Source of the DNA: Streptacidiphilus anmyonensis
Lineage (GTDB): Bacteria > Actinomycetota > Actinomycetes > Streptomycetales > Streptomycetaceae
DNA: 64,000 nt
Assembly (NCBI RefSeq): GCF_000787855.1
Contig: NZ_BBPQ01000001.1
Location: 1 to 64,000 of the forward strand
Direction of reading: 5' to 3'
Shown: positions 12,563-27,971 of the stretch, one piece after another
Layout: each line of letters starts with the position of its first letter
How positions within the stretch are numbered: position 1 is the first letter of the stretch
Made by a program: the position numbers and the translations under genes
The notes under the pieces: model-generated
Databases searched by the model: none
Told to the model about the DNA's origin: nothing
The model's input: only the letters and a program-made list of their open reading frames with translations

Positions 12563-12636
12563 TAGCGGGGACAGGATTTGAACCTGCGACCTCTGGGTTA
12601 TGAGCCCAGCGAGCTACCGAGCTGCTCCACCCCGCG
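12563..12636 (-). tRNA. Initiator tRNA-fMet (CAT), copy 1
   Basis: Complete 74-nt cloverleaf read on the minus strand. The acceptor strand starts CGCGGGG, and the anticodon stem is CTGGG/CCCAG with loop CTCATAA. The T-arm is GCAGG-TTCAAAT-CCTGT and the discriminator is A. Two features mark an initiator: three consecutive G-C pairs below the anticodon loop and an unpaired position 1 (C1 opposite U72). CCA is not encoded. It is nearly identical to copy 2 about 590 bases away. Confidence 0.95.
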
Positions 12637-13156: not shown

Positions 13157-13230
13157 TAGCGGGGACAGGATTTGAACCTGCGACCTCTGGGTTATGAGCC
13201 CAGCGAGCTACCGAGCTGCTCCACCCCGCG
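13157..13230 (-). tRNA. Initiator tRNA-fMet (CAT), copy 2
   Basis: 74-nt sequence matching copy 1, including the C1 opposite U72 mismatch and the three G-C pairs under the anticodon loop. It sits 40 bases downstream of the truncated UPF0182 gene on the same strand. A TATGGT (13249-13244) with TTGAGG 19 bases further upstream is a possible promoter, overlapping the end of that gene. Confidence 0.95.
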
Positions 13231-24211: not shown

Positions 24212-24532
24212 TCAGAGGACGACGGCGGCGAGCGCGCGCCGGGCGCGCAGCGAGGCGCGCTCGGCGCGGCGCCTCAACTGCAGCGCGCGCAGCAATCGTT
24301 CGCGCTCGGCCTCCTGCAGTCGCTCTTGCATGTGGACACGGGCCAGGGCTTCGGGCATGAGTTGCATGGTGAGGGTCCTGTTCTGGGAAGTCTCGGTGTG
24401 CTGTGCGGGGCGGGGACGTGCGTCGGCGGGACGGTTCATCGAAGGGACCTGCTTGTCGTCGAGGGGGTTCGGATCGATCACCGGATCGGCGATCTCGCGG
24501 ATTGAGCTGCGCAGCGCGCTTACGGCGGTCAC
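24212..24532 (-). CDS. Small Arg/Glu-rich helical protein coupled to wblC
   Basis: 106 residues if read from GTG 24532, which overlaps the wblC TGA by four bases (GTGA). A shorter form from ATG 24367 (MQLMPEALARVHMQERL...) covers the part that looks conserved in streptomycetes. That C-terminal part is a charged amphipathic helix rich in Arg, Glu, Ala and Leu, a possible coiled coil or nucleic-acid contact. No known domain. Overlap with wblC implies co-expression under translation stress. Function unknown. Confidence 0.7.
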   Translation of the reverse strand: MTAVSALRSSIREIADPVIDPNPLDDKQVPSMNRPADARPRPAQHTETSQNRTLTMQLMPEALARVHMQERLQEAERERLLRALQLRRRAERASLRARRALAAVVL

Positions 24533-24804
24533 GCCAGGACCTCGGACTTGCGCGGGCGACCACGCGGCCGCTTCCGGGCCACGACGACACCCTGGACGAA
24601 GAGCTCGCCGCCCCAGACCCCCCAGGGCTCCCGGCGCTCGAGCGCACCGGTCAGGCAGGCGTCCTTCACGGGGCAGGTGCCGCAGAGGGACTTGGCGTAC
24701 TCCACGTCCGCGGGGGTCTCGGCGAAGAAGACCTCGGGGTCGAGAGAGCGGCAGGGGATCGGGACGCCGAGCGTGTCGGCCTCCTCGAACGCGGTGAGCT
24801 GCAT
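24529..24804 (-). CDS. wblC: WhiB-family regulator WblC (WhiB7 orthologue)
   Basis: 91-residue Wbl protein. Four iron-sulfur ligands are C18, C41, C44 and C50; the G(V/I)WGG turn is at 62-66; the C-terminus RKRPRGRPRK carries an AT-hook. The AT-hook plus EPWGVWGGE is diagnostic of WblC/WhiB7, which binds the primary sigma factor and activates intrinsic antibiotic-resistance genes. ATG 24804 has GGAGG eight bases upstream; an in-frame GTG at 24888 lacks a ribosome binding site. Upstream lie an attenuator hairpin and reading frames, as known for this family. The stop overlaps the next gene. Confidence 0.93.
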   Translation of the reverse strand: MQLTAFEEADTLGVPIPCRSLDPEVFFAETPADVEYAKSLCGTCPVKDACLTGALERREPWGVWGGELFVQGVVVARKRPRGRPRKSEVLA

Positions 24805-24949
24805 CAGGGAAACCTCCGGGGGGTGGGAGTCATCGAAGTGGTCGGCCTTGGCTGCGGACGGGGCGTGCGGGGTGGTCACCGGTGACACGGTCGCGTCGTC
24901 TTCCTGTCTGAGTCGGTGTGCTCGATTGGGTTCTGTTGTGCGCCTGTGG

Positions 24950-24992
24950 GCAAACAGAAGGGCCGCGGATCCCGATTCGGGTTCCGCGGCCC
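24950..24992 (-). terminator. Attenuator-type intrinsic terminator in the wblC leader
   Basis: On the minus strand a 10-bp stem (24983-24992 with 24960-24969), one mismatch and a further 4-bp stem with loop of three bases are followed by TTCTGTTT. It ends about 145 bases before the wblC ATG and directly after a 134-codon frame. Confidence 0.8.
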
Positions 24993-25002
24993 TGGAAAGC
25001 CG

Positions 25003-25021
25003 ACCTGATGCAGGCTCAGGT
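25003..25021 (-). promoter_or_regulatory. Hairpin over the stop codon of the upstream frame
   Basis: ACCTGA, seven bases, TCAGGT; the TGA stop (25018-25016) of the 134-codon frame is inside one arm. A second pairing, CCCTGG (minus strand, at 25037-25032) with CCAGGG (24995-24990), would invade the base of the attenuator stem and could be an antiterminator. Confidence 0.45.
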
Positions 25022-25420
25022 TCGATCTATCCCAGGGTCGGGTCCGCGGAGGGCCCGGATCGTCATCGCCGCTGCGGCGATCTTCTGCGTGTGGAGCTGG
25101 TGCTGCTGGGACTGCTGCTTCTCGGAGGCTCCGGCACCCGCCGCGTCGCCATAACCGCCCGGGGCGGCCATGATCGCTACGGGTGCCGACAGCGGTCGCT
25201 CGAGACGACGGGCATCCCACGCGCCGAAGCCATTGCCGGCCAGGGCGGCAGCGGTGGCACCCAGGACGGCGACCTCGGAGACGACGCGCACCGGAGTGGC
25301 GACGACACGGGCACCGGCAAGGGACAGACCACTGGCCTTGACACAGGGCAGGGCGGCGTTGCGCATGCCGAAGTCGGCGGCGGTCACCGTCTGGCCAGCC
25401 AGTTTCGTCATCCTGGTCAC
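25016..25420 (-). CDS. 134-residue hydrophobic-patch protein in the wblC leader
   Basis: GTG 25420 has GGGAGG eight bases upstream, and the codons show the strong GC bias at third positions seen in real genes here. The protein has Ala/Val-rich stretches (GARVVATPVRVVSEVAVLGATAAALAG is the longest region, about residues 36-62) and a Gln/His-rich patch (KQQSQQHQLHTQK). It resembles no family I know. The stop is 24 bases before the wblC attenuator hairpin, and the start overlaps the stop of a 21-codon frame. It may be an independent gene, or a long upstream frame through which translation controls wblC. Confidence 0.6.
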   Translation of the reverse strand: MTRMTKLAGQTVTAADFGMRNAALPCVKASGLSLAGARVVATPVRVVSEVAVLGATAAALAGNGFGAWDARRLERPLSAPVAIMAAPGGYGDAAGAGASEKQQSQQHQLHTQKIAAAAMTIRALRGPDPGIDRT

Positions 25421-25482
25421 AATGTCCGCCTCCCTTCGGCGCGCTCGGGGTCCGCTGGTGTCGCGGACCCGCAGGTGGTCAC
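25417..25482 (-). CDS. Putative 21-residue upstream ORF in the wblC leader
   Basis: GTG 25482 preceded by GAGAGAA; 21 codons, with the TGA overlapping the next GTG (GTGA). A hairpin (25448-25455 with 25463-25470, 8 bp) lies within it. A four-codon frame (ATG 25493, MREK) overlaps its start in turn. Too short for composition tests. Confidence 0.35.
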   Translation of the reverse strand: MTTCGSATPADPERAEGRRTL

Positions 25483-25594
25483 TTCTCTCTCATAGCTTGC
25501 AGGACAGCCCGGGAGCTGTACAGCACGCAGCAGTAACGCCCGCTGCAGGTTGTGCCTGAGTGGGCTCGGCCTCGTTTCCTCGACCGTGCTCGGC

Positions 25595-25633
25595 ACGCTA
25601 GTAGGGTCCGCACTGCGCGCGCAAACTATTTTT
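25595..25633 (-). promoter_or_regulatory. WblC/WhiB7-type promoter candidate for the wblC leader
   Basis: Minus strand: an AT-rich block AAAAATAG (covering the uvrD2 stop codon), then TTGCGC (25624-25619), 18 bases and TAGCGT (25600-25595). An AT-rich element directly upstream of the -35 is the known signature of WhiB7-activated promoters. Confidence 0.5.
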
Positions 25634-27971
25634 CCGGCGAGTCTTCAGCCGACATCTCCGCGGGCGTCGGCTCGCCCCAGAGGTCCGAGATGTCCGCCTG
25701 ATCGCCCTGCTCGGACGCGCCCTCGGGCCGGTCCCCCGAACGCGGATCGGGCAGCACCTCGCCCCCGGCCGGATCGGCCCCGGCGCACAAGGACAGCACC
25801 GCCTCGCCGTACTTGTCCAGCTTGGCGCGGCCCACCCCGGAGATCTGACCGAGCTCCGGGAGCGAGCCCGGCTGCTGCTCGGCGATGGCGATGAGCGTGG
25901 CATCGGTGAAGACGCAGTAGCCCGGCAGACCCTGCTCCCGGGCCGTGCGGCCGCGCCAGTCCCGCAGTCGCTCGTACAGGGCCTCGTCCAGCGAGGACGG
26001 GCAGTCCTCGCAGCGGCGCAGCTTGCGTTCGACGGCCTCGGTGAGCACCCGGCCGCAGACCCGGCACTTGATCGGCGAGCGGCTCCGCGCGGCACGACCA
26101 CCCTGTGCGCCCTGCCCGCCCGCGCCACTGCGGCCACCACCAGCGGCACGCAGCGAGGAGCCGGGCCGCAGGCCGTCGAGGAAACGGGAGGGGCTGCGCG
26201 AGGCACGACCACCCGGCGAACGGGACAGCGCCCAGGACAGCCCCAGGTGCACCCGGGCCCGGGTGACGCCGACGTACAGCAGCCGCCGCTCCTCCTCGAC
26301 CTGCTCGTCGGTCTTGGCGTACGTGATCGGCATCATCCCCTCGGTCAGGCCGACCAGGAACACGGCGTCCCACTCCAGACCCTTGGCGGAGTGGAGGGAC
26401 GCAAGGGTGACGCCCTCGACGGCCGGGGCGTGCTGGGCGGCCGCACGGGCGTCGAGCTCGGCGACGTAGGCCGCGAGGTTGGCCGGCTGCTGCGCGGCGT
26501 GCTGCGCCGCCTCGAACTCCTCGGCCAGCCGAACCAAAGCGGCAAGCGACTCCCAGCGCTCGCGCACCGCCCCCGAGCCCGCAGGCGGCTGGGCGGTGAA
26601 GCCCCGCGTGGACAGCACGGCACGCACCTGGTCGGCCAGCCGCTCGGGCGTCTCCTCCAGCAGCGGGTCGACCGGGCCGCCGCCCGCGCGGGCGGCGCCG
26701 CGCAGCAGCAGGCCGGCTTCGCGGACCTCGGGGCGCTCGAAGAAGCGCTCCGCACCGCGCAGCTGGTACGGGACACCCTGGTCGGCCAGGGCCTGCTCGT
26801 AGACCTCGGACTGCGCGTTGACCCGGAACAGGACCGCGATCTCGCTGGCGCGCACGCCCGAGTCGAGCAGGGCCCGGATCCGCCTGGCCGTGCCCTCGGC
26901 CTCGGCAGGCTCGTCCGAATACTCCAGATAGACCGGCTCCGGGCCGGTGTCGCGCTGGGAGACCAGCTCCAAGCGGTGTTGCGCGGCCTGACCGCGCGCC
27001 TGCGCCAGCAGGCCGTTGGCGAGATGCACGACCTGCGGGGTGGAGCGGTAGTCCCGGACCAGCTTGATCACGGTCGCGTCCGGGTGCCGGGTACGGAAAC
27101 CCAGCAGGTACTCCGGTGTGGCCCCGGTGAACGAGTAGATCGTCTGGCTGGCGTCGCCGACCACGCACAGGCTGGAGCGCGGGCCGAGCCACAGGTCCAG
27201 CAAGCGCTGCTGGAGCGGCGACACGTCCTGGTACTCGTCGACCACGAAGTGCTGGTACTGGGCACGGACCTGCTCGGCGACCTCGGGCCGATCGTCGAGC
27301 ACGCCGACCGCCAGCAGCAGCACGTCCTCGAAGTCGATCACGCCGCGGTCGCGCTTCAGCTCCTCGTAGACCTTGTAGACCTGGCGGATCTCGGCCGGGT
27401 CCCGGGGCGTCTCGCGGCCGGACTTGGCGGCGGCCGCCGGGTAGTCCTCCGGCACGGTCTGGGTGACCTTGGCCCACTCGATCTCGGCGGTCAGATCGCG
27501 CAGCTCGGTGCGCTCCAACCGGATCCGGCAGCGCCCCGCCGCCTCGGCCACCAACTGCACCTTGCGCTCCAGCAGCCGCGGCAGCTCGCCGCCGACCACG
27601 CGCGGCCAGAAGTACTGCAGCTGGCGCAGGGCGGCCGCGTGGAAGGTGCGGGCCTGCACGCCCTCCACGCCGAGCTGGCGCAGCCGACCGCGCATCTCCC
27701 CGGCAGCGCGCGCCGTGAACGTCACCGCGAGGACGCGCTGCGGCTGCATCACGCCGCTGCGCACGCCGTAGGCGATCCGGTGGGTGATGGCCCGGGTCTT
27801 GCCCGTGCCCGCGCCCGCGAGGACGCAGACGGGCCCTTGCAGCGCCGTGGCGACGGCCCGCTGCTCCGGGTCGAGCCCGGCGAGCACGGCGTCGGCGTCG
27901 CGGCGCCCGCCCGGGTCGGCTTCGTGGGAACCGGGGAAGGACGGCAGCGTGCCGGGGAGCTCTACCTGCAT
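25626..27971 (-). CDS. uvrD2: Superfamily 1 DNA helicase UvrD2 with HRDC domain
   Basis: 781 residues from ATG 27971 (GAGAGG nine bases upstream; a TTG at 28001 is also open). SF1A helicase motifs are clear: Q motif LDPEQRAVA, Walker A GAGTGKT, DEYQDVSPLQQ, VGDASQTIYSF, YRSTPQVV, LHSAKGLEW and VGVTRARVHL. The C-terminus has a CxxC...CxxC segment and an HRDC-like domain (DALYERLRDWR-type start, GVGRAKLDKYG). This architecture is the actinobacterial UvrD2 type, an ATP-dependent 3'-5' helicase for DNA repair. It is divergent from mycoredoxin, and its end overlaps the wblC promoter candidate. Confidence 0.93.
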   Translation of the reverse strand: MQVELPGTLPSFPGSHEADPGGRRDADAVLAGLDPEQRAVATALQGPVCVLAGAGTGKTRAITHRIAYGVRSGVMQPQRVLAVTFTARAAGEMRGRLRQLGVEGVQARTFHAAALRQLQYFWPRVVGGELPRLLERKVQLVAEAAGRCRIRLERTELRDLTAEIEWAKVTQTVPEDYPAAAAKSGRETPRDPAEIRQVYKVYEELKRDRGVIDFEDVLLLAVGVLDDRPEVAEQVRAQYQHFVVDEYQDVSPLQQRLLDLWLGPRSSLCVVGDASQTIYSFTGATPEYLLGFRTRHPDATVIKLVRDYRSTPQVVHLANGLLAQARGQAAQHRLELVSQRDTGPEPVYLEYSDEPAEAEGTARRIRALLDSGVRASEIAVLFRVNAQSEVYEQALADQGVPYQLRGAERFFERPEVREAGLLLRGAARAGGGPVDPLLEETPERLADQVRAVLSTRGFTAQPPAGSGAVRERWESLAALVRLAEEFEAAQHAAQQPANLAAYVAELDARAAAQHAPAVEGVTLASLHSAKGLEWDAVFLVGLTEGMMPITYAKTDEQVEEERRLLYVGVTRARVHLGLSWALSRSPGGRASRSPSRFLDGLRPGSSLRAAGGGRSGAGGQGAQGGRAARSRSPIKCRVCGRVLTEAVERKLRRCEDCPSSLDEALYERLRDWRGRTAREQGLPGYCVFTDATLIAIAEQQPGSLPELGQISGVGRAKLDKYGEAVLSLCAGADPAGGEVLPDPRSGDRPEGASEQGDQADISDLWGEPTPAEMSAEDSPEK

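Follow-up and report, generated by a model that had tools for sequence, protein, structure and literature searches.

The minus strand of the window, i.e., the 64,000-nucleotide stretch of Streptacidiphilus anmyonensis DNA analysed here, encodes a WhiB7-type regulator, WblC, with uvrD2 lying upstream of it. The WblC protein combines a Whib domain with an AT hook, is 98% identical to that of S. melanogenes, and has an orthologue in all 14 Streptacidiphilus genomes searched, the window's own included (hereinafter, the 14 same-genus loci). The interval between uvrD2 and wblC (433-971 nt in 94 loci, measured to the matched part of WblC) displays one recurrent layout comprised of a promoter, an upstream open reading frame (uORF), a hairpin holding the stop codon of that frame, and a terminator. 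The features of this region in the window, with the basis for each in brackets, are:

25595-25633, minus strand: WblC-type autoregulated promoter, AAAAAT-AGT-TTGCGC-18 nt-TAGCGT (sequence and pattern matches across loci)
25448-25470, minus strand: hairpin GGGTCCGC/GCGGACCC before the uORF ribosome-binding site, overlain by a 21-codon frame (stem counts)
25427-25441, minus strand: small CGCC..GGCG hairpin containing the uORF ribosome-binding site, GGGAGG at 25434-25429 (sequence)
25016-25420, minus strand: uORF of 134 codons, GTG start at 25420, TGA stop at 25016 (sequence and conservation)
25032-25050, minus strand: antiterminator 5' arm in the last uORF codons, TCCGCGG at 25050-25044 and CCCTGG at 25037-25032 (sequence, covariation, folding)
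25004-25020, minus strand: hairpin holding the uORF stop codon, the tip of the nested antiterminator (sequence, covariation, folding)
24983-24995, minus strand: antiterminator 3' arm CCAGGGCCGCGGA, which doubles as the base and 5' arm of the terminator (covariation, folding)
24952-24992, minus strand: intrinsic terminator GGGCCGCGGA..TCCGCGGCCC (24992-24960) followed by TTCTGTTT (sequence, folding)
24529-24888, minus strand: wblC, a WhiB7-type regulator of 119 amino acids (Pfam Whib 4.4e-16, AT_hook 0.0017)

A 106-codon minus-strand frame (24212-24532), with no Pfam match above the cut-off and no NCBIfam match up to an E-value of 1, overlaps the wblC stop codon by GTGA and could be translationally coupled to it. 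A known Rfam element was rejected as the identity of the leader, as a search of positions 24400-25750 recovered no match above the gathering score, the only one up to an E-value of 1 being sR49 (19 bits vs 50). Over the whole window Rfam detected two tRNAs only; the two tRNA genes, both on the minus strand (12563-12636 and 13157-13230), have equal scores and starts 594 bases apart.

The AT-rich block next to TTGCGC-N18-TAGCGT, which the initial annotation had offered as a WhiB7-type promoter, is indeed present: AAAAAT (25633-25628) runs into the UvrD2 stop codon TAG (25628-25626), such that the promoter overlaps the end of uvrD2, and is followed by the boxes TTGCGC (25624-25619) and TAGCGT (25600-25595) separated by 18 nt. 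The pattern recurs in the uvrD2-wblC interval of 149 of 175 loci, including 13 of the 14 same-genus ones, as opposed to 4 matches in 565,298 bases of neighbouring control sequence. The S. coelicolor WblC promoter consensus, as given in an excerpt of PMC7157823, is GAAAWY, 3 nt, TKGMNN, 16-19 nt, TANNNT; AAAAAT agrees with five of the six positions of GAAAWY in that version, identifying the promoter as one of the WhiB7 type. The predicted transcription start at ~25587 places the whole uORF inside a leader of ~700 nt. A generic promoter and terminator scan found no promoter, and its sole terminator-like match (24745-24732) falls inside wblC; because its patterns are fixed, the scan is blind to the leader promoter and terminator alike, and the evidence for both elements therefore rests on their conservation.

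At the 3' end of the leader, the last codons of the uORF can pair with the base of the terminator, CCCTGG (25037-25032) with CCAGGG (24995-24990) and TCCGCGG (25050-25044) with CCGCGGA (24989-24983), with the stop-codon hairpin (CCTGA/TCAGG, 25020-25016/25008-25004) nested inside this antiterminator. The terminator CCGCGG starts 25-28 nt after the uORF stop in all 14 same-genus loci, and in 5/10 and 24/35 of the printed loci from other families of the order and other orders, respectively. Both pairings covary across 53 loci: the antiterminator arms have an energy of -13.0 with their own partners vs -10.3 with swapped ones and the stop hairpin -12.4 vs -9.2, with 0 of 20,000 permutations reaching either value, and the effect is also seen with the 33 other-order loci alone. 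Pair counts in an alignment of 36 rows, from which seven rows were omitted by eye and whose shuffles do not control relatedness, show 9 of 13 pairs changed on both sides vs 6.4 in shuffles (14 of 500 reach it), a covariation score of 0.245 vs 0.164 (0/500), and 31 both-side-changed cells vs 17 (0/500). The proposed register has 77.8% of its cells paired and slid versions at most 47.4%; the version slid by -3 attains 10 both-side-changed pairs and 27 such cells, yet is only 38.8% paired. These observations bear out the stop-codon hairpin and the CCCTGG/CCAGGG antiterminator pairing, both of which the initial annotation had proposed; the intrinsic terminator that it listed is likewise present in the sequence. 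In thermodynamic folds, the minimum for RNA lacking the terminator 3' arm is the antiterminator with the stop hairpin (-44.9) and that for the full length is the terminator (-57.1). Masking the footprint of a ribosome over the stop (-15 to +15) costs the truncated RNA only the stop hairpin and the upper helix, with the lower antiterminator helix persisting (-25.0), and lets the full-length RNA form the terminator (-40.9). Since the ribosome-free full-length minimum is itself the terminator, the order of synthesis must decide the outcome.

In 4 of the 14 same-genus loci (the window, L097, L098, and L100), CCCTGG has slid one base by two substitutions that turn Pro-Trp into Pro-Gly, i.e., the RNA motif and its pairing are kept and the peptide is changed. 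Departures from the motif are CCCATGG in L099 (pairing energy -10.2) and CCTTGG in L109. The antiterminator and stop-hairpin pairings could also explain the WSPPV or similar sequences with which many other-order uORFs end. The terminator stem has an internal A-A mismatch (24982, 24970, and counterparts) that is kept in many loci; in uORFs with the sequence TTCCGC, the antiterminator arm offers a U with which the first mismatched A can pair, a possible reason for its retention.

A WhiB7/WblC product with a Whib domain and AT hook, a predicted translatable uORF between the promoter and wblC, an intrinsic terminator 3' of it, and a covarying pairing between the uORF and terminator together place the leader, as judged from sequence, in the known whiB7/wblC uORF-attenuator class, and it very probably functions as a uORF-dependent transcription attenuator. 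Ribosome-sensitive attenuation, which the initial annotation had taken as the mode of control, is the known regime of wblC/whiB7; published work describes both the uORF-based attenuation and the induction of the gene when cells meet antibiotics or are starved of amino acids (Lee, Lee and Roe 2022, Mol Microbiol 117:179, as relayed in excerpts of PMC11550727, PMC12121999, and PMC13393426). Relative to the S. coelicolor wblC leader, to the extent that it is described in excerpts of later papers (Lee 2022, via PMC11550727, PMC10727445, PMC12121999, and PMC13393426), no tested feature sets the window leader apart. The mycobacterial whiB7 leaders, as sketched in excerpts of PMC4128351, PMC10727445, and PMC13393426, likewise have a long leader, a uORF, and a stem-loop with a T-rich tail, with M. 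marinum and M. bovis whiB7 starting ~350 nt upstream. Their uORF is called small in the excerpted text of PMC4128351, whereas that of the window has 134 codons; the M. abscessus version is listed as a protein gene, MAB_3509c (PMC10727445, excerpt). The E. coli toiL uORF of topAI resembles these systems in that one uORF senses several antibiotic classes, but belongs to another gene system and taxon, and the uORFs are described as short ORFs in the excerpt of PMC12121999.

The search for uORFs across loci was anchored on the terminator. As in the window, where GGGAGG lies 8 nt before the start, a uORF with a ribosome-binding site and terminator occurs in all 14 same-genus loci (median 123 codons, range 103-143). 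A uORF with a terminator was further recovered in 115/118 loci of other Streptomycetaceae (median 108, 88-163), 10/10 loci of other families of the order (median 143.5, 103-155), 35/44 loci of other orders (median 84, 23-125; some of these other-order frames may be mispicked), and 57/70 held-out loci of other orders, 55 of them with the usual stop-to-terminator gap (median 75, 59-188). The view that so long a frame is not the textbook arrangement did not hold: median lengths are 75-144 codons over the five sets (108-144 in those of this order and 75-84 in those of other orders), and a protein-sized uORF is the rule in the Streptomycetaceae and common in the other orders sampled.

The window uORF encodes all 20 amino acids, with a single codon each for Cys (25345-25343), Trp (25219-25217), and Tyr (25153-25151). 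Judged against a multinomial Monte Carlo null drawn from length and pooled composition, in which descent is not modelled, such complete sets are in excess throughout: they are found in 13/14 same-genus uORFs (24% expected), 107/114 from other Streptomycetaceae (26%), 8/10 from other families of the order (31%; reached by 5 of 4000 simulations), and 15/33 from other orders (6%). The idea was derived from these four sets; in the held-out genomes, drawn afterwards from other orders, 27/55 uORFs are complete (10% expected; the highest of 4000 simulations gave 27%). In the Streptomycetaceae completeness is the same without the last 12 codons, which hold the antiterminator region, i.e., the set is already complete upstream of the arm. 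Dropping the last 15 codons leaves 9/114 complete in the other Streptomycetaceae and 10/14 in the same-genus loci, because a Trp located 13 codons before the end (105 cases in the 114 loci) is then lost; the one located five codons before the end is part of the arm itself. Ahead of the arm, every one of the 14 same-genus loci carries a single Trp, which occupies either of two positions in the alignment (10 vs 4 loci), a signature of turnover. More generally, a once-only residue lost at its column is present elsewhere in the frame in 3825/4145 cases, with Cys being at about chance (366/609). Once-only residues are better conserved than repeated ones in 8 of 9 amino acids, His excepted, in a test confounded by the inherently more recent origin of extra copies.

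Based on these observations, we propose that the uORFs may have been selected as full-alphabet tripwires, with at least one codon for each amino acid lying upstream of the antiterminator arm, a reading to which we assign a probability of roughly 0.55. The support is weaker outside the Streptomycetaceae: upstream of the arm 26/87 other-order uORFs are complete (vs 5% expected), 32/88 are without Trp upstream of the last 11 codons, and Cys is missing in 10/55 of the held-out ones. In family f6, two Ala-rich frames (L200, 76 codons, and L202, 65 codons) are without W,Y or C,E,L, and the third locus is complete; these may fit the alanine-starvation role reported for mycobacteria if f6 is mycobacterial, which is a guess. 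In mycobacteria, Poulton's 2024 work is said to have found that uORF composition determines the sensing of amino-acid starvation.

The principal alternative is that the uORF is long only for codon sampling, as in antibiotic stalling, or for timing, and that the full set arises incidentally from length, composition, and shared ancestry. Long uORFs in every set examined and the established induction of wblC by antibiotics both accord with this, as does a null model that ignores descent. Moreover, most held-out loci come from families already sampled, and just 2 of the 8 from seven new families are complete, which weakens the full-alphabet reading and strengthens this rival. Against it, every set has more complete uORFs than length and composition would lead one to expect. 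The counts come from related sequences, and sampling one locus per family lowers completeness, yet still leaves an excess: over 26 families 9.4 are complete vs 3.4 expected (P ~0.0005), and 6.9 vs 2.3 (P 0.003) without the last 12 codons. Comparably sized stretches of other sequence are rarely complete, be they windows of the 28 long high-GC3 frames in this DNA (1.3% at 75 aa, 7.1% at 108 aa, 14.5% at 134 aa), uvrD2 tails of matched length (0-15%), or the held-out uORFs read in frame +1 or +2 (0/55 and 1/55). Furthermore, the uncommon residues are under-dispersed, with exactly one Tyr in 93/114 uORFs of other Streptomycetaceae and 42/55 held-out ones. We accordingly regard the by-product explanation as a tentative one that is distinctly less probable than selection for the full alphabet, though of appreciable weight.

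A second alternative, namely that the product of the 134-codon frame is a small protein with a function in trans and that the location of the frame in the leader is coincidental, bears on whether it is the peptide that is under selection. The frame was initially called coding-like, which stands insofar as it is maintained: it has no internal stop in the 14 loci (4-8 stops in frame +1, 0-3 in frame +2), and its indels are multiples of three in 25/25 cases vs 4/18 in the flanks, a count over ten non-independent pairs from five close genomes. It fails at the level of the product, for dN/dS is near 1: 0.78 in the five close genomes to 0.89 in all 14 same-genus loci, where wblC has 0.17-0.19 and the other frames of the uORF 0.94-1.08, and 0.95 over 4774 pairs from other Streptomycetaceae (wblC 0.13, frame +1 1.20), which is not below that of frame +2 (0.80). 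This near-neutral ratio is uneven: over alignment columns 1-25 it is as low as 0.36 in the close five, and over columns 100-150 it exceeds 1. A trans-acting protein would account for that N-terminal constraint, for the conserved frame, start, and ribosome-binding site, and for peptide positions shared family-wide (e.g., ERPt.A and mwAfRGpePW). However, the whole-frame ratio near 1 vs 0.13-0.19 in wblC, the variation in length from 103 to 143 codons within the genus, the absence of Pfam or NCBIfam matches at E-values up to 1, and the identity of the conserved C-terminal stretch with the antiterminator arm make this improbable, and we rejected it on the dN/dS values and the lack of a Pfam/NCBIfam match. 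Sequence comparison instead suggests that it is being read that is under selection, and the peptide product hardly so, save for the first 25 alignment columns.

The 5' part of the leader contains two further hairpins. As alignment of the 5' leader yielded a weak consensus fold, the one before the uORF ribosome-binding site was tested by stem counts: among the 118 of 128 loci with an anchor, 75% have a stem of at least 6 pairs just 5' of that site, compared to 17% of shuffles, which were single-base only, and the sequence of the stem is variable, with 67 distinct versions. The small CGCC..GGCG hairpin around the ribosome-binding site occurs in most of the Streptomycetaceae loci printed, with L027 and L072 as exceptions, and may tune uORF initiation. 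The initial annotation had instead viewed this part of the leader as a chain of coupled frames, and the 4-codon (25493-25479) and 21-codon (25482-25417) minus-strand frames that it listed, each overlapping the next start, do exist in the window. Their starts are not conserved: the 4-codon ATG is confined to the window among the 14 same-genus loci, the 21-codon start position is GTG or TTG in 6 and CTG in 8 of these (counted by eye), and of 26 further loci printed, 16 lack a start in the 21-codon reading frame. Likewise, the GTGA said to couple the 134-codon frame generalizes to NTGA at the uORF start in 108/128 Streptomycetaceae loci, but this follows from the second uORF codon beginning with A. 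Hence, although stop/start overlaps and NTGA are what a sensor of 4-, 21-, and 134-codon frames working in series would show, the unconserved starts, the variable-sequence hairpin occupying the 21-codon frame, and the simpler origin of NTGA render it highly implausible, and the chain was rejected as the design of the leader.

The single long uORF would then operate as follows. WblC, together with the primary sigma factor, would drive transcription from the promoter that overlaps the end of uvrD2, generating the leader of ~700 nt, and the 134-codon uORF would be translated. Ribosomes that run through to its stop would occlude the 5' arm of the antiterminator and melt the stop-codon hairpin, so that the terminator could form and transcription would stop short of wblC. 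An earlier stall, due to an antibiotic or uncharged tRNA, or a failure of initiation would allow the antiterminator hairpin to form and wblC to be transcribed, with the resulting WblC raising the activity of its own promoter. The suggestion that a protein-sized frame is the translation sensor is likely to be right. The classical trp and his attenuators have short leader peptides in which codons for a single amino acid abound. As in those systems, the position of the ribosome on the leader frame would select between terminator and antiterminator; unlike them, the frame here is protein-sized with all 20 amino acids. In the tripwire reading, any stall before the arm would leave the arm free, favouring the antiterminator and the production of WblC, and we lean slightly towards explaining the length of the uORF by a need to place codons for all 20 amino acids before the arm, so that a stall anywhere trips the switch.

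No statement of a length or completeness rule for whiB7/wblC uORFs was found in the literature records and paper excerpts searched. What appears to be new here, and may already be in print in Lee 2022, Poulton 2024, or PMC10122055, is that the residue set is kept complete while the peptide drifts, along with where in the frame it becomes complete; if it holds, the completeness rule would be a new property of a known kind of leader. Selection for the full alphabet, if true, would account for the protein-like size of these uORFs and for the drift of their sequence with the frame, arm, and residue set kept. In actinobacteria, whiB7/wblC is a major regulator, itself inducible, of intrinsic resistance to ribosome inhibitors. 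Under the full-alphabet reading, a single RNA switch would report on how well all tRNAs are charged as well as on the state of the ribosome, uniting induction by antibiotics with that by starvation, and the sequence of the uORF would predict for each species the amino acids that it is able or unable to sense.
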